Below are positions 1-15,924 of a stretch of 64,000 bases of DNA, piece by piece. The DNA lies in assembly GCF_001042615.1 (NCBI RefSeq), contig NZ_AP012327.1, forward strand, positions 1,922,001 through 1,986,000, given 5' to 3'. The notes under the pieces were generated by a model. The model had not been told where the DNA came from and searched no databases. It saw nothing but the letters and a program-made list of their open reading frames with translations. Each line of letters opens with the position of its first letter. Position 1 is the stretch's first letter. A program made the position numbers and the translations under genes. Source of the DNA: Bifidobacterium catenulatum subsp. kashiwanohense JCM 15439 = DSM 21854. GTDB lineage: Bacteria; Actinomycetota; Actinomycetes; Actinomycetales; Bifidobacteriaceae.

Positions 1-130
1 TCCAAATTGAACGCTCAGGGTGTTCAGGAACAAGTGCCGACAGTGAACACCTTTATTCGATCACACACAGGTTGGAGATGGAGGTGGACGTTTCAGAACA
101 AGTGGCGCCGGTATTCGCACGAAGGCAGGC

Positions 131-735
131 GTGATACGGGCCAACGAGGCGAAGCGCGAACCTGCCGGCCCCGCGAGTCCGGCGGCTACGCCCCGCACAC
201 GCGTCCGGCGGGCGATCTTACCTCTTGTTTATGGTCAAATAAACATGTACGGCGTCGGCGGAGGCTGGGCGTACGTGTGTCTGCTGGCCGGTCTGGCGGA
301 CAGGGGCATTGCCGGCCATTCCGCCGGGCGGACCCGGGACGCGGGCCTGGTGCCGCGTTCGCCACCCTCGACTTCCCGCTGGCGGACGTCCAGGTGTTCC
401 GCACCGACCGGGGCGGCGAGTTCGACAACACGAGGATTGACGAGCCATTCGACGTGTTCGACGTCAAAGGATCGTTGTCACGCAAGGGCAACCCCTACGG
501 CAACGCCGTGGTCGAATCGATGAACAGGCTGCTGAGGAAGGAGCTCGTGTACCGGAACCACTACACCACGATCGAGCAGCCGGGGCGCGACCCCGACGGC
601 TGCGTGTGGTGGTCCGACGACCAGCGGCTCCACTCCACCCTCGGATACCGGAGTCCGAAGGAATTCACCGAACAGGGACTCGTCCTCTAAGAAACCGTCC
701 AACACACCGTTGCCAATCCAAGGTTACCGAACTAT
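131..735 (+). pseudogene. IS3-family transposase (OrfB) remnant
   Basis: This is a degraded integrase-type transposase on the plus strand. One frame reads INMYGVGGGWAYVCLLAG and DRGIAGHSAGRTRDAGLV (about 240-350). A shifted frame then reads ATLDFPLADVQVFRTDRGGE (about 364-423), NAVVESMNRLLRKELV (about 502-549) and LHSTLGYRSPKEF (about 631-668), and a stop follows at 688-690. The HxD-type DRGGEFDN and the VESMN glutamate match the last two catalytic positions of IS3-family DDE transposases. At least one frameshift near 350-365, a likely internal deletion and missing N-terminal parts make it non-functional. The text after the stop (ETVQHTVANP) still fits the family tail. The exact boundaries are uncertain. 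Confidence 0.75.
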
Positions 736-955: not shown

Positions 956-1263
956 GGAGAATCCCGACATCCACAGTGACCGTGGCTGCCACTACCGATG
1001 GCCGGAATGGATCCGCATCCGCAAGGAACACGATTTGTCACTTCCATGAGCGTGAAAGTCTGTTCTCCGGACAGCGCCGCCGTGGAGGGGTTCTTCGGCC
1101 GTCCCAGGCAGGAGTTCTTCCACAAGCGCGGTTTCGCGGGCGTCTCGTTGGACGGGCTCATCGGCATGCTGGACGAGTACATGGTCTGATATCGGGACAG
1201 GCGGATCAAGACGGAGTTCGGCATGAGCATCATGGACCGTCGACGCAGGCTCGGTCTTGTGGC
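956..1263 (+). pseudogene. IS3-family transposase C-terminal remnant
   Basis: The reading frames, once combined, give [16 protein letters not shown] (about 970-1020), CSPDSAAVEGFFGR (about 1062-1104), LDGLIGMLDEYMV and, after a TGA where Trp is expected (1187-1189), YRDRRIKTEFGMSIMDR. This is the C-terminal half of an IS3/IS150-type DDE transposase with the D (HSDRG) and E (AxEGFFGR) catalytic motifs. It is clearly related to, but distinct from, the intact copy at 6616-8043. A frameshift near 1030 and the internal stop show decay. Confidence 0.75.
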
Positions 1264-1271
1264 ATGATTGG

Positions 1272-1573
1272 TGATGATGGAATCAATGACGAGTCCAACA
1301 AAACGTCACCGCTCCCAAGTGTCCATCTCGATTTGCCGAAATACAATTCGTACGACAACGTCATGGCCGAGTCCGTCAATGGCGCGTACAAGACCATGCT
1401 AATTTGGCGATGCGTGCCGTTCTCGGATCTTTCGGATCTGAAGCTGACGACGTTCCGGTGGGTCTCGTGGTAGAACTCGAAGCGGTTCCACCAGTCACTG
1501 GGCTAGCAGGACACCGCAGGCGGTGGAAACCGAGTATTATGCAAACCAAGCGGCGCAGGCTGCCTCACTATAA
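1272..1573 (+). pseudogene. Second IS3-family transposase tail remnant
   Basis: The frame from 1272 reads DNVMAESVNGAYKTMLIW and LTTFRWVSW, then a stop, NSKRFHQSLG and another stop. A shifted frame from 1511 continues TPQAVETEYYANQAAQAASL to a stop at 1571-1573. The motif DNxxAESxNGxxKxELI followed by HQSLGY-like text is the C-terminus of a different IS3 subgroup (IS407/IS3-like). Stop codons replace Trp and Tyr positions. The fragment ends 56 bases before the nuclease gene, so the cassette promoter must lie in or just after this remnant. Confidence 0.7.
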
Positions 1574-1629
1574 AGACGGGAAAAAATTAGGCCACTTCAT
1601 ATTACTACAGATAAAAAATGGAGATATAT

Positions 1630-3618
1630 ATGCAATTATCAAAGATAAAAATTAAAAACTACAGATTGCTTATTGATGCTGAATTGGAAGTCGATTCTAG
1701 AACAACCTTAATTGTAGGCAGAAACAACACAGCCAAAACATCCTGTTTTTCATGCATTGGAAAGGTATTGAATGGGGAAGCCGTATCTTTCGATGACTAT
1801 CCACTATTAAGAAGAAAAGATTTCTACACAAAAATCGCTCTGTTCATGGAGAAAAAGCTCACTTATGAAGACCTTTGTAAGCATATTGAAATTATCTCTA
1901 TAGACTTCCTGGTGGACTATTCGTTGGATGATCTAGATGATAATTTGGGAGCATTGTCGCCATTTATCATCGATGTTGATGTGGACACAACAACCGCTCT
2001 AATTCGTGCAGAGTATCGCCTAAAAACTGACGAAAAAACCCTGTGGTCGCTCTTGGAAAGCAGCTATTATAAGGATGGTGCCTATTCGCCGAGCGAAGAA
2101 GCCCATAAAGTGCTTGCTGATAATTTCGGCAAATTGTTTGAATTAACCGTATATGCCATCAATCCGAATAATCCAGAAGACAAACAGGTAAAAAGCCAAA
2201 AGGAATTATATGATCTGTTCCCATTCCATGCAATTCCTGCTGAACGAGTTCTTGGCGAAGATGACGCACATAATAGTTCTCTCGGATTATTAATCTCCGG
2301 CTTCTTTGATACAAGCGAAGCGGAACTGGATCCAGATGTTGCCACAGAAATAAAACGATTACGCTCAATAGTGGAAAAAGCCAATAAAGACGTTCAAAAA
2401 CAGAGTGATGAAATCCTAAGTTCTGTTGTAAACAATTCTATTGGTTTTGGTTATCCCAACATAGAGGAATTAAAGCTCGGAGTTACAACGCAGCTCAGCA
2501 TCGACGATCAGATCAAGAATCAGACTAAGCTGTCTTATATATCCGGCACAGCAAACGAAAGTTTGCCAAGTTCTCATAATGGTCTTGGTTACAAAAATCT
2601 GATCAAAATGGAGTTCCTCCTTGCTGCATTTGCCAAGGATATTGAGAAACGTGGTGTTGCATGTGTGCCACTTCTCTTTATTGAGGAGCCTGAATCTCAC
2701 ATGCATCCACAAATGCAGACGGCTTTCGCTGCGTATTTGGAAAAATTTCTTGGCAAGCTCTCTGATGTGAAAATTCAAACTTTCCTAACCTCGCATTCCG
2801 CTCATATAGCTAATACTATGGAGTTTTCAAAAGTTCGGTATACGCAAAAGTCTAATACCGGTGTAATTTACAAAAACTTGAACACCTTTGCTCAAGACCA
2901 TCCTAATAATGTAGATTTTATTCGGAAGTATTTAACCCTGACCAAATGCGATTTGTTCTTTGCCGATAAAGCCATTTTTGTTGAGGGAGCATCCGAACGG
3001 TTGCTATTGCCTGACATGATTGAGAAATGCGAAAAATCTGGAGAGTTTAGTCACTGTAAATATCCTTTATCTGCGCAGTATTATGCCTTAATTGAAATCG
3101 GTGGAGCTTATGCACATAAATTCATTCCATTTATTGATTTTTTAGGAGTACCGTGCCTAATCCTTACGGATTTGGACTCTGTAGCAAACAGTAAAGGAAA
3201 AAATGGGAAGGCGGTAAAAAAATCCGTTATTGTTAGTCAAGGGGAAACTACGTCTAACGAAACGATAAAATGGTGGATTCGTAGAAATAAGGGGATTTCT
3301 GAGAATAATACTTCAAAAATCAACCTTTCGGAGATTAAAGCTATAACAGCAGATGACAAAACCAGAGGGAAATGCCATATCGAGTTCCAAACTACTGAAA
3401 ATGGATTGTGTGGACATTCTTTGGAAGAAGCCATACGCAATGTCAATCGAAAGCATTATAATTTAAGTGATAAAATAAGCGAGGATGAGCTTGAATTTAA
3501 AGGTAAGAGTAAAACGGATTTTGCACTTGATTTAATTTACAAATACTCTGATTATTGCGTTCCTGATTACATAAAATCCGGGTTAAAATGGCTAAATGAC
3601 CAAAGAGTTCTTGAGTAA
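1630..3618 (+). CDS. OLD-family ATPase/TOPRIM endonuclease, Gabija GajA-like
   Basis: This is an ATP-binding nuclease of the overcoming-lysogenization-defect (OLD) family. In order it has an N-terminal SMC/ABC-type ATPase with a Walker A-like GRNNTAKTS (about residues 30-38), a Walker B FIEEPESH (about 350) and a switch histidine in TSHSAH (about 386). A C-terminal TOPRIM domain follows, with FVEGASERLLLP (about 450) and LTDLDS (about 512). The start at 1630 is preferred over the ATG at 1618 because GGAG lies 6-7 bases ahead of it. The stop is 14 bases before a UvrD-like helicase, the arrangement of class 2 OLD or Gabija systems, in which GajA nicks DNA and GajB senses or unwinds ends. At 662 aa it is longer than the roughly 580 aa I recall for the prototype. 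Low GC and Firmicutes-like codon use suggest recent transfer. The Walker A glycine before the lysine is alanine. Confidence 0.85.
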   Translation: MQLSKIKIKNYRLLIDAELEVDSRTTLIVGRNNTAKTSCFSCIGKVLNGEAVSFDDYPLLRRKDFYTKIALFMEKKLTYEDLCKHIEIISIDFLVDYSLDDLDDNLGALSPFIIDVDVDTTTALIRAEYRLKTDEKTLWSLLESSYYKDGAYSPSEEAHKVLADNFGKLFELTVYAINPNNPEDKQVKSQKELYDLFPFHAIPAERVLGEDDAHNSSLGLLISGFFDTSEAELDPDVATEIKRLRSIVEKANKDVQKQSDEILSSVVNNSIGFGYPNIEELKLGVTTQLSIDDQIKNQTKLSYISGTANESLPSSHNGLGYKNLIKMEFLLAAFAKDIEKRGVACVPLLFIEEPESHMHPQMQTAFAAYLEKFLGKLSDVKIQTFLTSHSAHIANTMEFSKVRYTQKSNTGVIYKNLNTFAQDHPNNVDFIRKYLTLTKCDLFFADKAIFVEGASERLLLPDMIEKCEKSGEFSHCKYPLSAQYYALIEIGGAYAHKFIPFIDFLGVPCLILTDLDSVANSKGKNGKAVKKSVIVSQGETTSNETIKWWIRRNKGISENNTSKINLSEIKAITADDKTRGKCHIEFQTTENGLCGHSLEEAIRNVNRKHYNLSDKISEDELEFKGKSKTDFALDLIYKYSDYCVPDYIKSGLKWLNDQRVLE

Positions 3619-3632
3619 GGGAGGGCCAGTTC

Positions 3633-5375
3633 ATGAGTAAAGAGTGTATTGGCGTAAATTATGGTCTTGCAAAAGCAGAAGCCGATAAGGTTGATGCACG
3701 GATTATCGAAGCGCTTAAATCAGGACACAGTTTCCGTGTTGAAGCTGGTGCGGGTTCTGGAAAAACGTACTCTCTGAATCGAGTTATTGAATGGATACAA
3801 GCAAATAAATGGTCTGCCTATAACCGAAAGAAACAAAATGTGATCTGTATTACATATACAAATGCGGCTGTGGATGTAATTGCAGAAAGACTTGCAAAAG
3901 ATTCATTTATTCTTCCCTCTACAGTTCACTCGTTTGCATGGAATGCAATCAAACAGTATCAGGGTGTTTTGATCGAAGCTGTCACAACAAATCCCGATTA
4001 TCTGCCAGACGAAGGTGACTTTAATCAGGTCACCGAAGTTGCATATACTTTGGGGCATCGCTACAAGGAAAATGGTGTTCAGTACCTCTATCATGACGAC
4101 GTTCTAAAGCTCTTCTGCCAACTTCTTGATAACGCTAAATTTCGCCGGGTATTTGCAGATAAATACCCTTTGATATTGATTGATGAATATCAGGACTCCT
4201 ATAAGCCGATTATTGATCGCTTTATTAATTTTTTCATAGCAAAAAGTACTGGACCGCAGTTCGGCTTTTTCGGCGATGCTTGGCAAACCATCTATCAGTC
4301 AAACAAAGCCTGTGGAGAAATTAAACACGAAAAAATCGAGGTAATAAAGAAGGGATCAAATTTCCGATCTGCGCCAAGGATTGTTCAACTTTTAAATAAT
4401 ATCCGTCCTGAATTGCCGCAAAAATCAGCCATTGATGGATTTGACGGTGAAGTTTTAGTGATTACGTGTGATGATTATTCGGGAGCTCGTCGCACAGAAC
4501 GTAATTTCAAAAATGAATTGCCGGCTGCCGAGTTTAAGGCAAGACTGAACACTATCGTAACAAAAATTGAGCAGAACACACCTGCTGATGAAGATCTTAA
4601 AGTTCTGATGATTACGCACAAAGTTCTTGCTTCTCAACAAGGCTACGAGCAACTTTTGGATATACTGAATGATGCGTTGCGCAACAAGGAAGATCCTTTT
4701 CTTATTTTCTTTGCTGATACGATAGAATCGATATATCATGCGCTTGATACTTCGAACACCCAGTTGCTTTTTGACACGCTCGGAATCAAGCGGTATCCAA
4801 TTACAAAAAAATCCGAAAAAACCAAATGGAAAACGCTGTATGAGCAACTAACAGAAGTTCGCACACAAAAAGCTATTGATGTTTTGAAGACTATCATTGA
4901 TAGTCAACTGATACCCATTCCGCCTAAAGTGGATGGATGGTACCGACTTTATATGGATGCTCCAGAAACAATGTATGCATCAAAGGCCACAATTCAGCAG
5001 TTTTTACAGCTAGATTATGCACAATTTATTGCTGTTAGGGATTTTCTATATCCAGACGCACAATTTTCAACAGAACATGGCGTAAAGGGCGAAGAATACG
5101 ATAATGTTGTTTTTGTTATCAGCAGGGGATGGAACCAGTACCAATTTGAAACCTATGCGCCAATGATAACAGGTCATGCTTCTATTCCTAAAGGCAAAGA
5201 AGCATCGTATGAGCGAAACCGGAATCTTTTCTATGTTTGTTGTTCAAGGCCAAAAAAGCGGTTGTTCTTTTTTGTCACCGTGCCGATAGATTCTTCATTC
5301 AGAACTTTTTTGGTAAAACTAACCGGTGAAGAGAGTATTCTAACCTATCGACAATTTATGGAAGCATCTAATTAG
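3633..5375 (+). CDS. UvrD/Rep-like superfamily 1 helicase, Gabija GajB-like
   Basis: This is an SF1A DNA helicase with all the main motifs: Walker A AGAGSGKT (about residues 38-45), motif Ia ITYTNAAVDV, STVHSFAW, Walker B LILIDEYQD (about 184), motif III FGDAWQTIYQ (about 214), motif IV NFRSAPRIV (about 243), motif V HGVKGEEYDNV (about 484) and motif VI YVCCSRPKKRL (about 534). At 580 aa it is compact compared with UvrD or PcrA but larger than a typical GajB. A strong GGGAGG site seven to eight bases before the ATG, and a 14-base gap to the nuclease, indicate one transcript. It is inferred to act with the upstream OLD nuclease in anti-phage defence. AT-rich codon use matches its partner and contrasts with the rest of the window. 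Confidence 0.85.
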   Translation: MSKECIGVNYGLAKAEADKVDARIIEALKSGHSFRVEAGAGSGKTYSLNRVIEWIQANKWSAYNRKKQNVICITYTNAAVDVIAERLAKDSFILPSTVHSFAWNAIKQYQGVLIEAVTTNPDYLPDEGDFNQVTEVAYTLGHRYKENGVQYLYHDDVLKLFCQLLDNAKFRRVFADKYPLILIDEYQDSYKPIIDRFINFFIAKSTGPQFGFFGDAWQTIYQSNKACGEIKHEKIEVIKKGSNFRSAPRIVQLLNNIRPELPQKSAIDGFDGEVLVITCDDYSGARRTERNFKNELPAAEFKARLNTIVTKIEQNTPADEDLKVLMITHKVLASQQGYEQLLDILNDALRNKEDPFLIFFADTIESIYHALDTSNTQLLFDTLGIKRYPITKKSEKTKWKTLYEQLTEVRTQKAIDVLKTIIDSQLIPIPPKVDGWYRLYMDAPETMYASKATIQQFLQLDYAQFIAVRDFLYPDAQFSTEHGVKGEEYDNVVFVISRGWNQYQFETYAPMITGHASIPKGKEASYERNRNLFYVCCSRPKKRLFFFVTVPIDSSFRTFLVKLTGEESILTYRQFMEASN

Positions 5376-5433
5376 CGAACAACGAAATGCAGCTCACCGG
5401 TCATTGCTGATCGATGAGCAGCTATATGCTCAA

Positions 5434-5627
5434 TTATTCTTCCATAACTTCTAACATCATTCTGGCACCCAGTCTAAAACTGTTCTGAAATACCAGGCAA
5501 TCCGTGGTGGTTTGATGCTCTTGCACACAATCGGTATATTTCTCGAACAATTCTTTCTACTCGTCCGTTATGGTAGCTTTAAGCGTTTCTTTATTCCTGT
5601 TAATCAACTTCTGTAACTTCTTGGATT
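5434..5627 (-). pseudogene. DUF6809-like protein, broken C-terminal remnant
   Basis: The minus strand reads KLQKLINRNKETLKATITDE, a TAG stop, then KELFEKYTDCVQEHQTTTDC, LVFQNSFRLGARMMLEVMEE and a TAA. If the internal TAG was a Gln codon, the whole is a continuous small helical protein resembling the DUF6809 family of Clostridia (pattern EExKxLFEKY...FxxGFRLGxxMMxE). The N-terminus is cut off by the IS256 end at about 5632. It is AT-rich like the Gabija-like genes, so it probably arrived with them. The assignment rests on remembered family appearance only. Confidence 0.5.
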
Positions 5628-5638
5628 AGGAGGGGGGT

Positions 5639-6615
5639 AGTGCCCGAAAGGTTGCGCACTTTGGATCATGCCCGTCCATGGCGCGATGATCAGTTCGCTT
5701 CCACGAGGTTGCCATCGAACCGAGATATGTCGAGGTAGCGGCAGGTCGACCATTCGTTCGCGGTGACGTAGCAGATGCGGGTACATATGAACATCAACGC
5801 GCTGTCGCCGTCGGGGAAGCCGCCGGTCACGCGCTTGCGCCGCCTGATCTCCCGGTTCAGCCGTTCGACCATGTTGCTCGTGCGGATTCTCCTGCGGTGC
5901 CCGTCCGGGAACTCGTCCAGCAGATAGGCCCCCGGATTCTCTCCCGCAGGCAGTTCGCGGCGGCATTCAGCCTCCTGGCCTCCATCTCCACGGCGACGGT
6001 CTCGGCCTTGTCCAACGCGGATTCCCGGGACTCCATGGCGAACATGGCCTTCAGGGCCGCCGACGCCCATTCGCGGTGGCTGGGCGGCGTCTTCGAGAGC
6101 ACGTTGCGCATGAAACGCGCCATGCACCGCTGGCACCTCGCCTTCGGCATCATCGAGTCCACCGTGGAGACCAGTCCCGCGCACCGGTCGCCGACCACGA
6201 GCCGGACGCCCTCCAGACCGCGTTCGATCACCGCGGACGCGAACGGGGCGCCCTTCAATTTCGGCACCTTGAGCCCAAGCCTGCCGGCCTTGGCGGTCAG
6301 GCTCCGCTCGTAGTGGCTGGCCCGGTAGGCCTTCCGTCCGCCGGAACGCTCGTATCTGGACACCCGACGATCTCGTCGGCCTGAAGCGTCGGGCATCGCA
6401 TTGAGTACCTTGGACGCCTTCTGCGTGACAAGCTGGTCGAGCCTGGTCCCGGGCGTGTGCCGATCAATCCGTATGGCATTCTCGGGCATGGTTCCGTCTC
6501 CTGATTTCCAATCGCGGTTTTTCGTTTTGGCGAATGAAGAAATCGTGCACAGGACGCGGGCCATGCCTTTCACATCAAAGACGGAAACCCAAAGCGCGCA
6601 AGAATTCGGACGTTA
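5639..6615 (-). mobile_element. IS256-family element, internally deleted
   Basis: The left end TAGTGCCCGAAAGGTTGCGC and the right end, read on the minus strand as TAACGTCCGAATTCTTGCGC and continuing into CTTTGG, form imperfect inverted repeats around a single degraded transposase gene. At under 1 kb the element is shorter than a full IS256 (about 1.3 kb). An intact IS3 element has inserted at, or immediately beside, its right end. Confidence 0.65.
5690..6489 (-). pseudogene. IS256-family (mutator-type) transposase, deleted and frameshifted
   Basis: The start is the ATG at 6489, with GGAGACGG upstream. The frame reads GGRKAYRASHYERSLTAKAG, VPKLKGAPF, GLEGVRLVVGDRCAGLVSTV, then MPKARCQRCMARFMRNVL, and ends out of frame near 5857. 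A second frame continues RRIRTSNMVERLNREIRRR and KRVTGGFPDGDSALMF to 5690. These are recognisable IS256 transposase blocks: an N-terminal YERxxxRxxYRxGxYxR-like repeat, the central GLxGVxLVxGDxxxGL and the C-terminal TSNxVERLNREIRRR. About 80-100 residues between KLKGAPF and the GLEGV block, which include a catalytic region, are missing, and a frameshift lies near 5880-5920. It cannot encode an active transposase. Confidence 0.8.
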
Positions 6616-6660
6616 GGGGCTCCGGACGTTTTCTTGGAGACCGAACGGAAAGATTTTCGT

Positions 6661-7179
6661 ATGTTCAGTCTTGAGGAACGAGAGCGTGCGATGGAGTTGT
6701 ATTTCACCACGCCGATGACGACGGCCCAGGTGGTGGAGCATCTGGGTTATCCGACCAGGCAGTGTCTGGAGCGTTGGCTGGCGATGGATTCCCGGTATGC
6801 TGGCCATATGGCCAAACCCATCATCCCACTGGAGACCAGGCGAAGGGCAGTCGAGCTGGTGCTGGTCGGCATGCAGCAGAAGCAGGCCGCCAAACAGCTC
6901 GGCGTGAGCGTCGGCGCGGTGCATGGCTGGGTCAGGGCGTACCGCAAGGGCGGCATGGCCGCGTTGCAGCCCAAAAACAGGAACTCCGCGCAGGGCAATA
7001 AGCCCGCTGACTCCCGTCGCCGGCCGTCCGCAGCCGATGATGATGACGCGGAGGCTTTGCGCCGCAAGGTCGAGGAACTGGAGCTGGAGAACGCGTTGAT
7101 GCGGGAGGTGGCGGAGGTCGTAAAAAAGACCCCGGCGCCGACCTGCGGCGCCTGTCGAACAGGGAGAAGACCCTGTTGA
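6661..7179 (+). CDS. IS3-family transposase OrfA
   Basis: This is the DNA-binding subunit of the insertion sequence. The N-terminal half has two helix-turn-helix segments ([20 protein letters not shown] at about residues 21-40, and [20 protein letters not shown] further on). A linker rich in acidic and basic residues follows, then a leucine-zipper-like helix ([20 protein letters not shown]). The start at 6661 follows GGAAAG. The frame overlaps orfB, and the heptamer A_AAA_AAG at 7122-7128 is exactly in the zero frame. A minus-one slip there would give the OrfAB fusion that acts as transposase in this family. Confidence 0.88.
7122..7128 (+). promoter_or_regulatory. Programmed -1 frameshift site, A_AAA_AAG
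   Basis: The zero-frame codons are GTA AAA AAG, giving A_AAA_AAG. A minus-one slip changes the product from VVKKTPAP to [20 protein letters not shown] and runs directly into the orfB frame. This is the standard IS3-family arrangement. Confidence 0.85.
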
Positions 7180-8015
7180 TCGACCGGTTGAGGCCGGCGT
7201 ATTCGCTCAGCTCGATGACATGCTTGCTCGCCATCGCGCCCAGCAGCTACCACTACCACCACGCCCGGCTCGGCGTTGACAAGTACGCCGGACTCAGGGC
7301 AGAGGTGGCCGGGGCGTTCGCCGATTCCAAGGGCAGGTACGGGTACCACAGGATCAAGGCGGTGCTCAAGACCGGCGTATCGGAGAAGGTGGTCCGCAGG
7401 ATCATGGCGGAGGAAGGGCTCGTGGCGCACGTGCCCAAGCGACGCAGGTATAGTTCCTACGAGGGCGAGACGACGCCGGCTCCCGCCAATCTCGTCGACC
7501 GGGACTTCACGGCCGAGCGTCCGAACGAGAAGTGGCTGACGGACATCAGCGAGATCAAGGCCAGGGACGGGAAGGTGTACCTCTCGCCGATGATCGACTG
7601 CTTCGATGGCAAGATCGTCGCATACACCGCCGGCTTCAGCCCCAACGCGGAGCTGGCCAACCGGATGCTGGAGAAAGCGGCCTCGACGCTGCCGGGGAAC
7701 GCGCGTCCCCTGGTGCATTCCGACCGTGGATGCCATTACCGGTGGCCCGGATGGCTCGGGCTCATGGAACGCTTCGGGCTGACGCGCTCCATGAGCGCGA
7801 AGGGCTGTTCGCCGGACAACGCGGCCGCGGAGGGATTCTTCGGCAGGATGAAGACCGAGGCGGTCTACCCCGAGAAGTGGGAGGAACACACCCGCAACGA
7901 GGTGCTCGCCTTGGTCGATGAGTACATACGCTGGTACAACCACGAGCGCATCAAACAGTCGCTTGGTTGGATGAGCCCGGTACAATACCGTCAAAGCCAA
8001 GGAATGGCTGCGTGA
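7176..8015 (+). CDS. IS3-family transposase OrfB (DDE integrase domain)
   Basis: This is the catalytic half of the transposase, 279 aa as drawn from the internal ATG, probably made mainly as an OrfAB fusion. An HTH_21-like segment ([13 protein letters not shown]) precedes the rve integrase core. The catalytic residues are the D of KWLTDISEI, the D of VHSDRGCHY and the E of [12 protein letters not shown], followed by the family tail [20 protein letters not shown]. All three acidic residues and the spacing are preserved, unlike the fragments at 1-1573. Confidence 0.9.
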
Positions 8016-8043
8016 TTATCTCCAAGAAAATGTCCGCAGCCCC

Positions 8044-8140
8044 TTATCGCTATCGCCGGATAACCGTAGATCGCCATGCCAGCTTTCATTAGCTGCAATA
8101 CCACGTGCGCTGCCTCAATAACATCCGGATTCTTGCCCAT
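8044..8140 (-). pseudogene. Unrecognised ORF fragment truncated by IS3
   Basis: From an ATG at 8140 the minus strand reads MGKNPDVIEAAHVVLQLMKA then GMAIYGYPAIAIRG, running straight into the IS3 right end. It looks like the start of a real helical protein cut off by the insertion. I do not recognise a family. It may equally be a chance frame. Confidence 0.25.
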
Positions 8141-8176: not shown

Positions 8177-9451
8177 TTATGAAGACCGCAGTCGGCTCGT
8201 TACGAATGCGCAGACGGCGGCAGCGACCAGCAACAGAAGCGACGTGACGGCAAGCGCTTGGATTGCGGAGCCGGTACGGGGCATGTCTGGCTGCTTGGGC
8301 TCGGCGGGTTTGCCAGGCTCATCTGGCTTGTCTGGCTCTTCTGGCTTGGCGATGGATTTGATGTTCACTGTTACTTGCGTGCTGATTTCATCATGGCCGG
8401 AGGTACGGAATTGTGGGCCCGCTCCCCCATCGGCGATTTCAGTATTGCGTGTTGCAGTGATGGTGACGGTTTGGTTTACCGCATCAAATGCCTTTCGCTT
8501 GGCGACTGCCTGCAGCGCGAGCTCGATCTGCTTGTTGAGAGCTTGCAGTTGCTCGGCATCCGCTACGAGACGATAGTCGGAAATACCGTTCAGTTTGGTT
8601 CTGGTGAGATCCAGCAGACTGTCGTTGGTTAGATTCTGCAAGGTTGAGCCTTGCTCAAGTGCTACCGTGGGGTAATCACTTGAAATAGCCAGCTCACTGA
8701 TATCAAACATGCCGTCGTCGCCGTTTGGGATTAGGCCTACCATGTCGGCTAAGTAGGGTGTGAGATTCTCCGTAGTGGAGAATGAGCCACCCATGAGCAC
8801 GAGCGTGTCAAGCCCGGCGGGGATTGCGCCATGGTATTCACCGCCGCGAATGCTCGCATAGCCGAGGTGTTCTGCATCGTCCAACATGCCGATCAGTGTT
8901 GGTGCGGTGAATGTTCCTGCGGAAATACTGGCCTCGGCAGAGGCACCGCTTGTTTCCGCGAACCGCATGAGCGTGGTGTTCGATGTGAAGTTTCCACCTT
9001 GAATCCGCAACGCTCCACGGCAGTCGATTGCAGGATTATCTCCGCCGACAACCGTGCCCGATCCGGTGATGGTGAGCTGCATGTTGGCAGGAACGGTGAT
9101 TGCCGTGGTATTGCTGGCGTTGAGCACATGTCCGTTCAATTCGAGCGTAATCCCGCGCACCACTTTCGATGGGGTGACGGTGACGCTTTCCGTAGTATCG
9201 GTAAGCAATGTGACCGTATTGTTCTTCATCGACGTATGGCTAATCGCGTCTTGCACGCTCATATAGGTCGTGTTGCCCACTTGAGCGACCGGCTGCGGCT
9301 CATCTGCAAACGCCATCATGGGAAACAACATCGTTCCCGACGATAATGAGATAATCAAGAAAAACGCGATCATCGCCGTCGAAAGCGTTGACAACATATG
9401 GATGTGGTGTGATTGCAGGCGTTCGACCGCCTGCTTTTCATGCTTATACAT
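8177..9451 (-). CDS. Sortase-anchored surface protein with MPRTG motif
   Basis: This is a cell-wall-anchored exported protein of 424 aa. A signal peptide with hydrophobic core IAFFLIISLSSGTML and likely cleavage after AFA precedes a region rich in Thr, Asn and short Gly-rich beta strands (GSGTVVGGDNPAIDCRGALR, IQGGNF, IRGGEY, LMGGSF). That suggests a parallel beta-helix-like passenger. A Pro/Glu/Lys wall spacer (PEEPDKPDEPGKPAEPKQPD) leads to MPRTG, a hydrophobic helix and an RLRSS tail. MPRTG departs from LPXTG at the first position. The start at 9451 is set by AAGGA six bases upstream. The upstream 5' region is AT-rich. The ligand is unknown. No sortase gene is next to it. Confidence 0.8.
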   Translation of the reverse strand: MYKHEKQAVERLQSHHIHMLSTLSTAMIAFFLIISLSSGTMLFPMMAFADEPQPVAQVGNTTYMSVQDAISHTSMKNNTVTLLTDTTESVTVTPSKVVRGITLELNGHVLNASNTTAITVPANMQLTITGSGTVVGGDNPAIDCRGALRIQGGNFTSNTTLMRFAETSGASAEASISAGTFTAPTLIGMLDDAEHLGYASIRGGEYHGAIPAGLDTLVLMGGSFSTTENLTPYLADMVGLIPNGDDGMFDISELAISSDYPTVALEQGSTLQNLTNDSLLDLTRTKLNGISDYRLVADAEQLQALNKQIELALQAVAKRKAFDAVNQTVTITATRNTEIADGGAGPQFRTSGHDEISTQVTVNIKSIAKPEEPDKPDEPGKPAEPKQPDMPRTGSAIQALAVTSLLLLVAAAVCAFVTSRLRSS

Positions 9452-9914
9452 GATCGTTCCTTGCATGGAGCGGTGATTAACTATTTCAAACGCACCGAAA
9501 TGCGTGTAGACCACCCTCAGCTCTGAGGGATAAAGAAAAAGCAAAATAACAATATTACAGCGTTGAAAAATTATCTCACACAATCTACATAAAAAGCAAA
9601 TTCACTGCCGAAAGAAACTAAACAAATAGTAGAGTAACTAACTCCATATCAGTAGCATTGCAATCATGTTGGCAATTACCCAGAAATTTTTTATACAAGT
9701 AAAGAATAAGAATAACAGTAAAAGATACACCACAATTCAAATATTATAGGAAAGTTTTCTTACTTATACGTCAGTATTGCATGCAAAAACGACGCGATCC
9801 ATCCAGGCGATACAGACACCCCATGAACCGCGTCATACCCCACTATTTCCCAGTGCATAACACCTTAGGGCAGAAGAAAATTCAAAAGCTCGGCAAGAGC
9901 GAACCCAAAAAGAT
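9452..9914. other. AT-rich intergenic region, no gene seen
   Basis: This stretch separates two minus-strand genes. It is clearly more AT-rich than its surroundings between about 9530 and 9780. A short perfect inverted repeat CCCTCAG-CT-CTGAGGG (9514-9529) lies in the leader of the surface-protein gene. A weak stem (GCTC/GAGC, 9888-9900) followed on the minus strand by TTTTGAATTTTC could end the upstream transcript. No convincing coding frame is present. Confidence 0.6.
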
Positions 9915-11531
9915 TCAGAGCACACCCTGATCGCTTGGAGGCTGCGAACCAGAGCCAGAATCGCTACCAGAACCGGAATCAGAACCGCCATTGCCAGGCT
10001 TGACACCAGCACCAGGATTACTACTGGAACCGGAATCAGAACCGCCATTGCCAGGCTTGACACCAGCACCAGGATTACTACCGGAACTAGGAGTATTGCC
10101 AGGTGTAATAGGAGCCGAGGGAGTCAATCCGCCGGAAGGCTGCCGCGTGTACTGGTAGTTGTACGAATTGCCAGTATTGCCCTGTTGCTGCTGTTGATTC
10201 TGCGCAGCCAACGCGTTCATGGAAGCATTCACATCATCAGATGCGGTTTGCAAATCCGTTATCGACTGGTTAATGGCATTAGTATCGGTACTGTTGCCAT
10301 TGAACAGTTCCAAAGCATGGTCAATGGCACTCTGCAGCATCACTCGCGTGGAATCATCCGCCACTTGGTACAGGCTATTGTCAAGCAGTGACTGCGCATT
10401 ATTGATGGCTGCTTCAAGCTTCTTCAGCGCATCAGCGTTGTCTTGCTTCTCCTTGGCCTTCTGACTGTTCGTAACGGCTGTTGCAGAATCATTCAAGGTC
10501 TTGGACTGGCTTTGCAACGTAGGCAGTTGCTTGTTCATGGCTTTACTGCGCTGGCGAAGTCCAGCGTTGCTCAAATCAGCACTGCACTCCCCTACCGTTG
10601 TAAGATTCTGCGCATCTTTCACTGCAGACTGCAACGTGGTCAGCGTTTTCGCATCCGAAACCTGATCGCTTTTCACATTCTGCAACGATTTGGCATTCTT
10701 CAACGCCGCCTTGTATTCCTTCACAGCCTTCTCATATGCCTTGGAAGACTTTTTGCACATACTCAACGCGGTACGGTGCTGTTCGTTCCGTTCAAGCCCC
10801 TGGTCATACTGCCGGCGCTGCCAAACACCGAATCCAACGCCCGCGGCAACCAACGCCACTACGGCTACAATCGCAACGGTAATAATAATTGTCTTGCGAT
10901 GTGACTTCTTCGGCGGAACCGGAACAAGCTTCAATGGATCATGCTCATCGTTTTCCATGTCAGACAGGTCATCCGGCATGGGCAGGCTTTCAGGTATGAA
11001 GGTAGTAGAAGCAGATGCAGGGGAATCCACAAAAAGCGGCATAGTGGAATCCACAGAAGAGGCTGACTCTACCGGAGACGCGAACGAAACAGTTCCCTCG
11101 GCAGATTCGGCAGATGGTGAAGCATCAGCAGACTGTGTAACATCGAGCGTTGCGGTCGAAGAAGACGTCGAATCAGGCTCGCACGACGAGGCGGAATCGT
11201 TTTCAGCACCAGAAATATGCTTTTCTGCAATATTCGGAAAATCCTCAACACGAAGGTTTACCGTGGGCGCATCACTCACCGGCGTGGATGACGTGGCAGT
11301 GGTCATGCTTGTGGCTGCAGCCTGCGCATAAGCCGCATCAGATGCCTCGCCACGTTCCACAGCCGACTCAACTTCCGAAAAGGTGATCGGTGGAATATCC
11401 CAGAACGTATCCACCACATCATGCTCGGAAGCCGACTGCGCCTTGGTCTGCTGCTTGCCCTGAGAGCTCAGAGAGTCTCCCGACGAAACAAGATGCGACA
11501 GATTCGGCACAGTATTGTTGTTGTCACCCAT
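9915..11531 (-). CDS. Single-pass membrane protein with coiled-coil and Gly/Ser/Pro repeats
   Basis: This 538-aa protein has no known function. An N-terminal acidic, Ser/Ala-rich region (about residues 1-210), presumably cytoplasmic, precedes a basic KKSHRKT and one membrane helix (IIITVAIVAVVALVAAGVGF). The external part is a helical, FIVAR-like region with repeats such as LQSAVKDAQNL, LKKLEAAINNAQSLLDNSLY and MLQSAIDHALELF. A Gln/Asn-rich stretch and a low-complexity tail with two copies of a 19-residue unit (NPGAGVKPGNGGSDSGSSS) follow. The gene is 76 bases downstream of the Wzz/BY-kinase gene on the same strand, with a hairpin between them. A role in envelope or exopolysaccharide assembly is an inference from position only. 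Confidence 0.7.
   Translation of the reverse strand: MGDNNNTVPNLSHLVSSGDSLSSQGKQQTKAQSASEHDVVDTFWDIPPITFSEVESAVERGEASDAAYAQAAATSMTTATSSTPVSDAPTVNLRVEDFPNIAEKHISGAENDSASSCEPDSTSSSTATLDVTQSADASPSAESAEGTVSFASPVESASSVDSTMPLFVDSPASASTTFIPESLPMPDDLSDMENDEHDPLKLVPVPPKKSHRKTIIITVAIVAVVALVAAGVGFGVWQRRQYDQGLERNEQHRTALSMCKKSSKAYEKAVKEYKAALKNAKSLQNVKSDQVSDAKTLTTLQSAVKDAQNLTTVGECSADLSNAGLRQRSKAMNKQLPTLQSQSKTLNDSATAVTNSQKAKEKQDNADALKKLEAAINNAQSLLDNSLYQVADDSTRVMLQSAIDHALELFNGNSTDTNAINQSITDLQTASDDVNASMNALAAQNQQQQQGNTGNSYNYQYTRQPSGGLTPSAPITPGNTPSSGSNPGAGVKPGNGGSDSGSSSNPGAGVKPGNGGSDSGSGSDSGSGSQPPSDQGVL
9971..10084 (-). repeat. 57-bp tandem repeat (2 copies) encoding 19-aa unit
   Basis: AACCGGAATCAGAACCGCCA recurs at 9971 and 10028, giving a 57-base period in frame with the host gene. 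The unit translates as GAGVKPGNGGSDSGS plus SSNP. Copy number is likely to vary between strains. Confidence 0.8.
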
Positions 11532-11549
11532 GTTGATTCCTTATTACAG

Positions 11550-11582
11550 CGTGAGACCGAAGCTTCACGCTCCGGTCTCACG
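11550..11582 (-). terminator. Intercistronic hairpin
   Basis: CGTGAGACCG (11550-11559) pairs perfectly with CGGTCTCACG (11573-11582) around a 13-nt loop. It lies between the kinase stop and the start of the next minus-strand gene. No T-run follows, so it may attenuate or stabilise rather than fully terminate. Confidence 0.5.
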
Positions 11583-11607
11583 TTCACGCCTTATACACTA
11601 CTTGCGG

Positions 11608-13083
11608 CTACTTTTTGTGGCTTTTCTTCCGCGGAGCATCCTCGTAGTAGTAGTAATAGTAATTCGAATTGGAATGCGTCTTCTTCAGATCGGCATAGTT
11701 GAAGATGAAACCAAGCACAGGGACCTTGGCTACATGCAAGGATTCAGAAATCTCCTTGAGTTCCTTCTTCTCGCACACGCCACGACCGGTCACCAGAACC
11801 AGACCCTTGGCCCACCGGCCGAACACGATACCATCGTTGGAAACACTCAACGGAGCGGTATCAATAATAACGTAATCATACTGGGTCAAAGCCTGCTCGA
11901 CCATAATACGCATGGTGTCTGATCCAAGAAGCACGCCAGCATTCGCCGGGCGTTTACCAGCAGGAAGAATATGCAGAGTCGGCTTCCAGTAGTTCTGCAC
12001 CACATCTTTCGGAGACATCTGACCAGAAAGCACGTGCGCCAAACCGGCAGAACCTTCAAGACCCAAATGATGAGCAACGGAAGGATGACGCAGATCAGCG
12101 TCGACCAACAGCACGCGAGCACCATCTTCAGCCAAAGCCGCAGCCACGTTGATCGACGTGGTGGTTTTGCCTTCAGAAGGCTGCGCACTGGTAATAACCA
12201 GCAGCTGCCCCTTGCCCGCAACCTTATCGGTCTGCAAGAATTCGATATTAGTGTGAATACGACGGAATTCCTCAGCGATAGGGCCATTAGGCTGGCTGAC
12301 GAGCACTGGGCGCTTCTCACCTAGGGAATTATCCTGAGGCACGGAACCCAAGGAAGACGCCCCAACCAAGCTGCGCACGTCGGAAGTCTCCTCGACTTTA
12401 GTGTTCAGCATGTCTTTCAGTAGTGCGGCGAACACTCCAAGCACCAGACCTGCGACCACGCCGACCGCCAGATACAGCGGCTTATTCGGCGAGCTCGGGC
12501 TTTCAGGCACACGCGCCCTCTGCACGATGGAGATCTTCACCGGGGACTTATCTGCCGCGGAATACAGATCGTTTTGAATCACGTTCTGCATAGACACTGC
12601 CACCGCATTGGCAATGTCGGACGCCTGCTGCGCGTCACCATCTTCCGCGGAAATGTTCACGAACGCGGTGTCCGTAGGATTGGTGACAGTCAGTTGCTCG
12701 GCCAGACTCTTCACTGAAGTATCCAGTCCAAGATCCTTGATGACCGGCTCAAGTACGGTTTCGGTGGTTGCCAACGTTGTATACGACGTGATCTGGCCGG
12801 CGATGTACGTGCCACCCGTGTACTGCTGGCTAATGCCCGCATCATCCCCTTGGGATGCATTGTACGTAGCCATGGCCTGAGCCGTGGCGGTATACTTCGG
12901 CGGAACCAAGAAGGTGTACGCAGCCACCCCGGCGAAAACCATCACAAATATGATGGCCGCGGTGACCAGATGCTTGCGAATGATACGCATCAAATCCATC
13001 AGCGTGATGCCGTCTTCAGAATCATCTTCAACGGCAACCTGCTGGACGTTAGTGTTCTCTGCGGAAGTCACTGAACCCCTCAT
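11608..13083 (-). CDS. Wzz chain-length determinant fused to BY-kinase
   Basis: This is a capsular/exopolysaccharide co-polymerase with an intracellular tyrosine autokinase, 491 aa. The N-terminal Wzz part has a first membrane helix (LVTAAIIFVMVFAGVAAYTF) and a second (LYLAVGVVAGLVLGVFAALL). The C-terminal kinase has Walker A SAQPSEGKTTTSIN, Walker A' VLLVDADLRHPS and Walker B YVIIDTAPL, and ends in a tyrosine cluster (NSNYYYYYYEDAP) that would be the autophosphorylation site. Being a single fused chain it resembles the proteobacterial Wzc layout rather than the split CapA/CapB form. No glycosyltransferases, Wzx or Wzy lie nearby. The phosphatase at 15100-15720 could be its partner. Confidence 0.9.
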   Translation of the reverse strand: MRGSVTSAENTNVQQVAVEDDSEDGITLMDLMRIIRKHLVTAAIIFVMVFAGVAAYTFLVPPKYTATAQAMATYNASQGDDAGISQQYTGGTYIAGQITSYTTLATTETVLEPVIKDLGLDTSVKSLAEQLTVTNPTDTAFVNISAEDGDAQQASDIANAVAVSMQNVIQNDLYSAADKSPVKISIVQRARVPESPSSPNKPLYLAVGVVAGLVLGVFAALLKDMLNTKVEETSDVRSLVGASSLGSVPQDNSLGEKRPVLVSQPNGPIAEEFRRIHTNIEFLQTDKVAGKGQLLVITSAQPSEGKTTTSINVAAALAEDGARVLLVDADLRHPSVAHHLGLEGSAGLAHVLSGQMSPKDVVQNYWKPTLHILPAGKRPANAGVLLGSDTMRIMVEQALTQYDYVIIDTAPLSVSNDGIVFGRWAKGLVLVTGRGVCEKKELKEISESLHVAKVPVLGFIFNYADLKKTHSNSNYYYYYYEDAPRKKSHKK

Positions 13084-13227
13084 CTCCGTATATCAAAAAC
13101 CTTAGGAAATGCTACCCTACCCCCTAGAAATAGAGTCGGTTTTATCAGGCAGCAATCGCTTTTTTCACTATTTATCCATACGAATGTGCCATGATAAAAA
13201 GCTGGAACACCTAACAGAGGGGGATTA

Positions 13228-15033
13228 ATGTCTCAACATGCGAGCACTCACGCCGCCCGTTCTCACAAGCTTCGCAATACATTGCTTGTTATTACGGCAC
13301 TGCTCATCCTGCTGGTCATTGCCGGAGGCGTCGTCGGTCTGAATTTCTACAAGCAGGCGAAGGAAGTCAAAGCTCACGAGGAGCAGGCGGTCTCGTCTCT
13401 TTCGGCCATCACCGACGTCAATACGTTGAAGGATGTGCAAGCGTCGGATGCCGCAATCAAGCAGGCGCGGACCCATACCGCCGCGGCAAGAGATATTGCC
13501 AATGGAACACTGTGGAACATGCTGTCGAAGATGCCGGTTGTGGGCGGTGATGTTACCAACGTGCAGGGCATGACGCAGGTGGTGGATGATTTAGTGCAAC
13601 AAACACTGCCGTCACTCACCGATGTGGTACAACAGCTTGCGAACGCGCAGATCAGCGGCGAGAATGGCCAGTTGAATCTTCAGCCCATTGTGGATGCGCA
13701 AGACGACTTCTCTTCGGTAAGCAAGCAGGTGAAGTCGTTGAATTCGAAGCTCAGCAATCTGCCTGAACCACGTATCGGCATGGTGAAGAAGGCATATTCG
13801 CAGAGTCGCAGCCAGTTCACCAAGGTTACGGATATGGTGGAGCAAGTGAACAATGCGCTACAGATGCTCCCCTCCTTCTTGGGACAGAACGGTGCCCGAA
13901 CGTATCTGCTGGTGGCGCAGACCACTTCCGAACAACGTTCCGGCGGCGGACTGGTGGGCTCCATGGGTACGTTGCAGACCGATCATGGACAAATTCAGGT
14001 CGGTGAGTTCCATCACAATGGAGACTTCATTAACGGCAGTAATGGCAATGCTTCGGAACATGCCGTGTTCAAGGGGCCTCTGGGATTCTCCTTCGATATT
14101 CGCGACACGTTCGCGGTGCCAGACATCGCCCGCAATGCGGAAATGATGAATGAAGCTTGGCAGCGTTCCCAATATGCTTGCGATGTTGACGGTATCGTAT
14201 CTATCGATCCGGTGTTCATCCAGAAAATGGTAGAGATCAACGGCAATGTGACGCTGGAAGATGGTACTGTGCTCACCGGCAAAAATACCGCTGAATACAT
14301 GCTCAACACCATCTATAAGGAAGTTCCCGTATCTCTACAAGACACGTATTTCGAATACATCGCCTCCACCATCATGAACAACGCCTTCAGCAACATGGAC
14401 ATCACCAAGATGATGAAGGTGGCTCAAAGCATCGGCGAATTAACTAAGAACCGTCATTTCTACGCATACACGTTCCATGATGATGAAGCCAAATATTTCC
14501 AAGGTGCCGGACTCGCCAAGGGCACTCCAGACAGCGAGACCGATCCGGAAGTGGGCATTTACCTCAACGAACAGAATCCGTCGAAGTTGGGATGGTATAT
14601 CAACCGTAAGGCACAGATTACCAAAACCGGTCAGAATGCCGATGGGTCGAAAACCTACCATGTCACCTACACGTTGACCAATACGCTGACTTCCAGCGAA
14701 ATGGCCACCTGCACCGGCTATATTCTGGGCGGCGAGCAGGCAGGTGTAACGGGTAAGCCTGTTGCGGCTCCGGGAACGTCTGCGCAACGTATGCTGTTTT
14801 ACGCGCCGAAGGGTGGTTCCATCAGCGAGATCACCTCATCCGGAGACGTACGAGACCAAAGCAATGCTGTGATGGATGATCAAAAACTGGTCACCAATGT
14901 GGCTTATATCACCCCCGGGGAAAGCGTGACTTTCGATTTCGACGTGACCACCTCGCCGAAGGCCGAAAGCGATCTAACCATCGATCAGACACCATCCGGC
15001 AAAATGACTAACGAGGTCAACTACCAGTACTGA
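13228..15033 (+). CDS. DUF4012 domain membrane protein
   Basis: This 601-aa protein is divergent from the BY-kinase gene across a 144-base promoter region. It has a short basic N-terminus, one membrane helix (NTLLVITALLILLVIAGGVV, about residues 17-36) and a long extracytoplasmic region. The DUF4012 hallmark ARTYLLVAQTTSEQRSGGGL followed by VGSMGTL is at about residues 225-250. The family is found beside exopolysaccharide genes in Actinobacteria and Chloroflexi, and its biochemical role is unknown to me. GGGGG upstream of the ATG is a good ribosome site. It shares features with LytR-type accessory proteins only in topology. Confidence 0.85.
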   Translation: MSQHASTHAARSHKLRNTLLVITALLILLVIAGGVVGLNFYKQAKEVKAHEEQAVSSLSAITDVNTLKDVQASDAAIKQARTHTAAARDIANGTLWNMLSKMPVVGGDVTNVQGMTQVVDDLVQQTLPSLTDVVQQLANAQISGENGQLNLQPIVDAQDDFSSVSKQVKSLNSKLSNLPEPRIGMVKKAYSQSRSQFTKVTDMVEQVNNALQMLPSFLGQNGARTYLLVAQTTSEQRSGGGLVGSMGTLQTDHGQIQVGEFHHNGDFINGSNGNASEHAVFKGPLGFSFDIRDTFAVPDIARNAEMMNEAWQRSQYACDVDGIVSIDPVFIQKMVEINGNVTLEDGTVLTGKNTAEYMLNTIYKEVPVSLQDTYFEYIASTIMNNAFSNMDITKMMKVAQSIGELTKNRHFYAYTFHDDEAKYFQGAGLAKGTPDSETDPEVGIYLNEQNPSKLGWYINRKAQITKTGQNADGSKTYHVTYTLTNTLTSSEMATCTGYILGGEQAGVTGKPVAAPGTSAQRMLFYAPKGGSISEITSSGDVRDQSNAVMDDQKLVTNVAYITPGESVTFDFDVTTSPKAESDLTIDQTPSGKMTNEVNYQY

Positions 15034-15037
15034 CCGA

Positions 15038-15072
15038 TTCGTGCCGGCACTGACTGAAAGCGCCGGCACGAA
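15038..15072 (+). terminator. Hairpin after DUF4012 gene
   Basis: TTCGTGCCGGC (15038-15048) pairs with GCCGGCACGAA (15062-15072). It starts five bases after the stop codon. There is no T-run, but an 11-bp GC-rich stem between convergent genes fits a terminator. Confidence 0.55.
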
Positions 15073-15099
15073 ATCGTCGACCATGACGGCCACTGCCAT

Positions 15100-15720
15100 C
15101 TAAGCCCACATATTGTAGGTGGTAATGGGCTGCCCAGAACAAATCTGCGAGCGCACAGGCGCTATACCCATGCTGTAATGCTTTTTCATGCTTTTCAGCA
15201 TGGTTCGCAGAGCATTATTGGTCTGGTTGGCCGCGATACGGAACTTGTCGAACGACTTGCCGTGCGGGTCATCGATATCTTTGGGAGTGGGCAACATCGG
15301 ACGAATCATGGAAGAGACTTTGATAACGGATGCGAGACGCTCCTGGATGGTCAGTCCGCTTACCATGCCGTTTTGCGCGCAGTATTGGCACATGTTGGCG
15401 AAGTCGTTAAGCAGAAATGTATAACGGACCGCGCCTGGCGCGAGGGCAACGATGTCTTTGCGCTGTTCTTTCTCGAAGCAGAGAATCAGATCAGCACTCT
15501 CAGCCATAGATCGGGTGAGTCTGCGGGATCGGAATCCGCTTGGTTCAATGTTGACGCTGGTCATAAGTCTGGCACTGGACGGATCCATCTGGCATCGCGG
15601 AAGGCCACGCGTGCCGGCGCTAGAAACCTGCACAGTGGTGCCAGCGAGGTAGCGAGTGAGCAAGAGTTCGCCCATAGGCGACCGGCAGATATTGCCTGTA
15701 CAGACGAACATGATATGCAT
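15100..15720 (-). CDS. Low-molecular-weight protein-tyrosine phosphatase
   Basis: This is a cysteine-dependent phosphatase, 206 aa, cytoplasmic. The P-loop VCTGNICRSPMGE is at residues 6-18, with Cys7 as nucleophile. The DIDDPHGKS segment towards the C-terminus supplies the general acid Asp, where most members have DPF/DPW. The start at 15720 is chosen because AAAGGGG lies seven to eight bases upstream. The GTG at 15729 is less likely. In exopolysaccharide loci such enzymes dephosphorylate the BY-kinase tyrosine tail, so the kinase at 11608-13083 is the obvious candidate substrate. The C-terminal 40 residues beyond the conserved core are an extension. Confidence 0.88.
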   Translation of the reverse strand: MHIMFVCTGNICRSPMGELLLTRYLAGTTVQVSSAGTRGLPRCQMDPSSARLMTSVNIEPSGFRSRRLTRSMAESADLILCFEKEQRKDIVALAPGAVRYTFLLNDFANMCQYCAQNGMVSGLTIQERLASVIKVSSMIRPMLPTPKDIDDPHGKSFDKFRIAANQTNNALRTMLKSMKKHYSMGIAPVRSQICSGQPITTYNMWA

Positions 15721-15924
15721 ACCGCACACCCCTTTGTATCTCTACCTAACTTATGGAAACTACAATCCTCAATCTTACCTCAGGCATAGATATTACAATT
15801 TGGGGTTTAACCGTTTTACCCCTTCAGGGATACCTCAGGAAACATATATACCCTCGACAAAGGAGCGTGCTTCTTTAGTTGCAGGCTTATCGCAGAAGTT
15901 CGTTTCCGCCGCCACTTTCCGCCG

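Follow-up and report, generated by a model that had tools for sequence, protein, structure and literature searches.

What are two markedly AT-rich genes doing among insertion sequence (IS) elements in the chromosome of a bifidobacterium, and from where did they come? The genes in question lie in a stretch of 64,000 nucleotides from Bifidobacterium catenulatum subsp. kashiwanohense JCM 15439 = DSM 21854 (contig NZ_AP012327.1, positions 1,922,001 to 1,986,000; hereafter the window, with positions counted from its first letter). On the plus strand, gajA (1630-3618) encodes an OLD-family ABC ATPase with a TOPRIM nuclease domain (662 amino acids), and gajB (3633-5375) a UvrD-like superfamily 1 (SF1) helicase (580 amino acids). 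An initial annotation had described them as adjacent genes 14 bases apart, carrying the motifs of an ATPase-TOPRIM nuclease and an SF1 helicase, and had proposed a horizontally acquired Gabija cassette, probably from Firmicutes. Spacing, motifs, family and source all stand up to closer examination, and we conclude that this is very probably a complete Gabija anti-phage system which reached Bifidobacterium kashiwanohense from the Clostridia side and is now lodged among IS elements, close to apparent exopolysaccharide genes.

Membership of the Gabija family is evident from profile comparison. GajA matches the PADLOC GajA model PDLC00063 over residues 1-660 (E 7.9e-217) and GajB matches PDLC00113 over residues 12-573 (E 7.8e-206); a passage of PMC10568477 counts every class 2 OLD protein paired with a UvrD-like helicase as GajA. 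The Pfam domains are AAA_15 and OLD-like_TOPRIM in the gajA product, and UvrD-helicase and AAA_19 in that of gajB. Both frames are open, with a spacer of 14 bases between the gajA stop and the gajB start. We prefer the ATG at 1630 over the in-frame ATG at 1618 as the start of gajA because of a Shine-Dalgarno-like GGAG at 1620-1623 (plus strand), which is its likely ribosome-binding site; that of gajB is probably the GGGAGGG at 3619-3625 (plus strand), ahead of the ATG at 3633. The two proteins, which we take to be longer than the Bacillus cereus VD045 prototypes, had been suspected of representing a subtype on account of their length. PADLOC, however, already has models of this size, with 679 positions for GajA and 579 for GajB, so the lengths are not new; what still speaks faintly for a subtype is the remoteness of GajA from its B. 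cereus counterpart and an unusual Walker A motif. Judged by profile rather than member by member, the pair shows no difference from the PADLOC families in extent of match or in length, and it is an ordinary, apparently intact member of the known long-form Gabija family.

The catalytic residues of GajA are conserved. Our alignment of 20 rows comprises the window copy and 19 of the 26 genome loci in which we found relatives, leaving out two with a stop codon in the translated stretch (L018, L025), three with a two-piece match (L019, L021, L023), a partial one (L022) and the most distant (L027). Within it E452, D514, D516, E599, E600 and K628 are invariant (20/20). The TOPRIM active site of B. 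cereus GajA is described, in an excerpt of PMC10781630, as an invariant glutamate, a DxD motif and a glycine; the counterparts here, assigned by motif rather than by structural overlay, are E452, D514-x-D516 and G491/G492, likewise invariant in the 20 rows. Walker A reads GRNNTAKTS (residues 30-38, window 1717-1743), with K36 and T37 invariant. As for the helicase, gajB follows gajA in 24 of the 26 loci, the other two (L018, L022) ending in or just past gajA and showing no gajB; with the broken copy of L023 set aside, 23 loci contribute to an alignment of 24 rows, in which GAGSGKT is invariant except at G39 and DEYQD is invariant throughout.

A profile of GajB searched against solved structures finds GajB chains (8sm3_B, E 1e-13), and its structure model (mean pLDDT 82.0) is better than that of GajA. 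Foldseek with the GajA model nevertheless returns B. cereus GajA chains as its top five hits (8u7i at E 1.7e-18, 8x5i, 8sm3, 8tjy). In a second structural alignment (VIA), which covers residues 1-439, six GajA entries reach Z 17.4-18.1 (at the top, 248 and 293 residues aligned), a small lead over the Eco8 nuclease (16.4) and an SMC head (16.0) in the same region. The model thus predicts that the ATPase part of GajA folds like that of B. cereus GajA. Relative to the VD045 system (8SM3 and others), the window pair has the same order of domains, the same TOPRIM residues as judged by motif, the helicase motifs and a top fold match for GajA, but differs in that GajA shows no detectable sequence match and carries AKT in its Walker A.

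The relatives of the pair point away from bifidobacteria. Drawn from a species genome collection, the 26 loci include near-duplicates (L002-L004, L005-L006 and L011-L012), so that counts among them are not independent. Identity is 61-90% at 23 of the 26, with labels mostly of Lachnospiraceae, Oscillospiraceae and other Bacillota, and the closest relatives found are Clostridia at 90% protein identity. Seven Clostridia pairs (L002-L007 and L020) share 85-90% protein identity in GajA and 78-89% in GajB, the 14-base spacer and a GC content of 0.39-0.41. At the DNA level (blastn), identity is 88.3-88.8% to L002-L004 across 1601-5404, a span holding both genes and the spacer, and about 80% to L005 and L006 across 1629-5623. 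In our tree, the window copy groups with seven rows (six from Bacillota, and L004, which is unlabelled) at 100/100 support; the midpoint root serves only the drawing, and the tree does not single out a closest sister of the window copy. Synonymous divergence (dS) from L002 amounts to 0.54 and 0.35 for the two genes, so L002-L004 are relatives of the donor and not the donor itself. The ratio of nonsynonymous to synonymous divergence (dN/dS) in the same comparison, 0.087 for gajA and 0.154 for gajB, shows purifying selection between the copies.

By protein search, a relative is present in 1/112 genomes of the genus, that of the host itself; wide presence in bifidobacteria, which the initial annotation had named as counting against acquisition, is thus not what we find. 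Among 396 sampled genomes of the phylum, four others have weaker matches only (28-41% identity). Within the one order that we sampled around the L005 genome, a relative (E <= 1e-100) occurs in 4/394 genomes, among them those of L004, L005 and L016, which makes the clade uncommon in that sample. The distribution of the pair is sporadic in all three samples. The matches in 417 plasmid and 6 phage records were all below 60% identity, and of 11 pattern matches among viral contigs none was related to GajA, so that neither a plasmid nor a phage emerged as carrier. The recorded source of L005 and L006 is goat rectum, and the other relatives are presumably gut bacteria as well. Two observations concern the relatives themselves. 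Between L002 and L003 gajB is almost identical (dS 0.003) and gajA is divergent (dS 0.156), which suggests recombination inside the pair; and one genome (G508) carries two copies of the clade, the intact L003 and L023 with its two-piece gajA.

The boundaries of the acquired DNA can be placed with some precision. The low-GC segment runs from IS to IS (1601-5635, plus strand), similarity to the Clostridia loci L002-L007 beginning at 1598-1602 for several of them and extending to 5623 (blastn); the final 12 bp of the segment lie beyond this similarity. Its GC content is 0.389, against 0.588 in 1-1600, 0.632 in 5636-8044 and 0.568 in 8045-64000, and the lowest value among 520 overlapping blocks of equal length within 8045-64000 is 0.499. 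GC at third codon positions tells the same story (0.34-0.36 in gajA and gajB, 0.48-0.86 in 13 nearby host genes), and the contrast in composition noted initially is confirmed. On the left lie an IS3-type transposase fragment (7-690, plus strand; rve_3 in 7-687, E 1.3e-8) and, adjoining the segment, a bifidobacterial IS-type sequence (1348-1606, plus strand) with matches in the host's own genome and in other genomes of the genus, many of which end at 1594-1606. The right neighbour is an IS256/Mutator-family remnant (5636-6615, minus strand; Transposase_mut at 5857-6570), whose matches in the genus end at 6615 and in many cases start at 5633-5636, one at 5616. Next comes an IS3-type element that looks complete (6615-8044, plus strand), made up of two frames with HTH and rve domains and bounded by 26-bp inverted ends. 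The flanks had initially been taken for transposase debris on both sides; remains there are, on the left and on the right, but the right flank also holds this seemingly whole element. Sequence like window 5560-6640 recurs in 59/112 genomes of the genus and sequence like window 1100-1640 (either of two pieces) in 36/112, the host being included in both counts; the IS are therefore local and the cargo foreign. Just inside the right boundary lies what is left of a convergent DUF6809-type gene, truncated and interrupted by an internal stop (5434-5622, minus strand, by translation); it comes from the donor side, its intact counterpart being found in L005 (11810-12151, minus strand; DUF6809 E 4.3e-24).

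The base composition of the transferred segment is unaltered and its junctions are near-exact. No target-site duplication was seen by eye around 1600/5635, and the empty site could not be placed in a genome of the same species (G019), where similarity around the segment is patchy. Taken together, sequence similarity and phylogeny are best read as a cross-phylum transfer from the Clostridia side to Bifidobacterium. Farther out, window 8177-15729 and the chromosome to the left of the window contain, as read by eye from translations, glycosyltransferase, polysaccharide/chain-length-type and low-molecular-weight phosphatase-like genes, which suggests that the surrounding region resembles an exopolysaccharide locus strewn with IS pieces.

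How the system would act can be proposed by analogy with the Gabija systems studied so far. The two proteins would assemble into one complex, as in the 4:4 complex described in excerpts of PMC10822852 and PMC10568477. Within it, GajB would be the SF1 motor on DNA ends or single strands, and GajA would bind nucleotide through its ABC domain and cut or block incoming linear phage DNA through its TOPRIM domain. A passage of PMC12407980 reports that Gabija of Pseudomonas aeruginosa blocks the circularisation of linear phage DNA that lacks RecBCD. We infer that the Bifidobacterium pair forms such a complex, cuts DNA and protects from phage, and that it is expressed from a promoter that is not its native one.

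Several observations weigh against the pair being a complete Gabija system. In Walker A, the position before the lysine is alanine instead of the usual glycine in 17/20 rows (glycine occurs only in L003, L004 and L026), and this AKT form may entail altered nucleotide handling. Searched against solved structures, the GajA profile retrieves no B. cereus GajA chain even when E values up to 10 are allowed. The structure model of GajA has a mean pLDDT of 63.3, the TOPRIM half being poor, the Foldseek TM-scores are low (0.32-0.34 on the query), and four further GajA entries score Z 15.2-16.3 over residues 1-439, level with Eco8 and SMC heads. With the GajB model, Foldseek places UvrD, Rep and PcrA first and GajB only from rank 23. 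Searching the genus with the PDLC00063 family gives matches in 5/112 genomes at E <= 1e-10, with four weak ones outside the host (E 1.4e-22 to 2.4e-12). Expression, too, is in doubt: source-derived sequence 5' of gajA amounts to only about 29 bp, a consensus scan finds no plus-strand promoter-like site upstream of gajA, and in many relatives gajA begins 17-84 bp past the preceding gene, which together make expression of the pair in Bifidobacterium uncertain.

These last points lend weight to the strongest alternative, namely that the Gabija-type pair is silent and decaying in its new host, having lost its native operon and promoter and being penned in by IS, with no part in defence. The truncation and internal stop of the adjacent DUF6809-type gene fit such decay. 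However, both frames remain open behind good ribosome-binding sites, and IS ends are able to supply promoters. Both dN/dS values are far below 1, which argues in the same direction, though the low values may stem from selection that acted in the source lineage prior to transfer. We regard silence as a possibility to be taken seriously, if a doubtful one.

In the relatives the pair frequently stands behind another defence module, most commonly a type IIG-like restriction-methylation pair. A Methylase_S gene lies directly upstream of gajA in 14 of the 26 loci (14/14 scanned being positive) at gaps of 32-288 bp, and an N6_Mtase gene precedes it in 12/12 scanned loci; the contig of L004 holds only the specificity gene, the methyltransferase of L019 is split in two frames and was left unscanned, and L008 (1,166 bp) and L025 (256 bp) offer little upstream sequence. 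PADLOC identifies the pair of L003 as a type IIG enzyme and a type II specificity subunit, the type IIG match being 1.8e-164 in L003 and 7.3e-38 in L005. Other loci have different genes in this place: N6_N4_Mtase/Mrr (L016), AbiEii (L017), AbiEi (L018), a RloB/AbiLii-like gene (L022), an Avs2-like gene (L009, about 1 kb ahead of gajA) and a dCTPase/dCMP-deaminase-type defence gene (L021, 6245-7981) that ends 17 bp ahead of gajA. By reading, L023 has the L016-type gene in a cut-off form, which a transposase-like open reading frame (ORF) separates from the two-piece gajA; on inspection only, L013, L026 and L027 show no upstream defence module. Beside the island lies a uracil-5-methyltransferase-like gene in L002 (12079-13839, by Pfam) and, by eye, in L007 (12043-13710) and L013 (6234-7778), possibly its integration site.

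The Clostridia pairs closest to the window copy (L002-L007, L020) are preceded by a methyltransferase/specificity pair, or in L004 by the part of it on the contig, whereas the Bifidobacterium copy lacks this restriction-modification (R-M) module. One could envisage that long-form GajA with an AKT Walker A, standing behind exchangeable modules (type IIG-like R-M, AbiE, dCTPase-like, RloB), constitutes a Gabija subtype with a mechanism of its own, in which the ATPase is solely a nucleotide sensor, the stripped Bifidobacterium copy then being a natural test of function without an R-M partner; we consider this unlikely. Somewhat less probable still is that GajAB of this clade belongs, as effector end, to a larger unit that also includes the type IIG-like methyltransferase and its specificity gene, methylation being needed to tell self from non-self, in which case the Bifidobacterium copy would be incomplete. 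The frequency of the upstream arrangement and the type IIG matches favour such a unit, but the quite different modules in L009, L016, L017, L018, L021 and L022 fit an ordinary defence island. According to an excerpt of PMC13304284, Gabija of lactic acid bacteria often has an R-M system as its neighbour, so the adjacency is not new in kind.

Very improbable, finally, is an OLD/RecF-UvrD pair for DNA repair with no role in defence, since in spite of the nearness of the GajB fold to UvrD/Rep, the NCBIfam equivalogs for repair reach 25-41 bits where their cut-offs lie at 543-1168 (the best housekeeping helicase match of GajB, which the initial annotation had named as the outcome that would undo the Gabija assignment, being 41.3 bits against 951), the distribution is sporadic and the neighbours in relatives are of defence type. 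A class 3 OLD nuclease of the retron kind was also considered and rejected: the retron-Eco8 nuclease resembles GajA in ATPase fold and is a weak profile match to it, but the window gene has a helicase downstream and IS pieces on both sides, and no reverse transcriptase was seen among the five other window ORFs scanned or read as neighbours, no RNA-family search having been made.

The system found here is thus of known kind, and its transfer is well resolved. It is a clear case of phage-defence genes crossing phyla into a culturable infant-gut type strain. It also adds a case of Gabija in Bifidobacterium, the papers in one literature collection that name both having, going by their titles, other subjects. 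As the Bifidobacterium copy stands without R-M genes, it could reveal whether a partner is required for Gabija of this clade to work.

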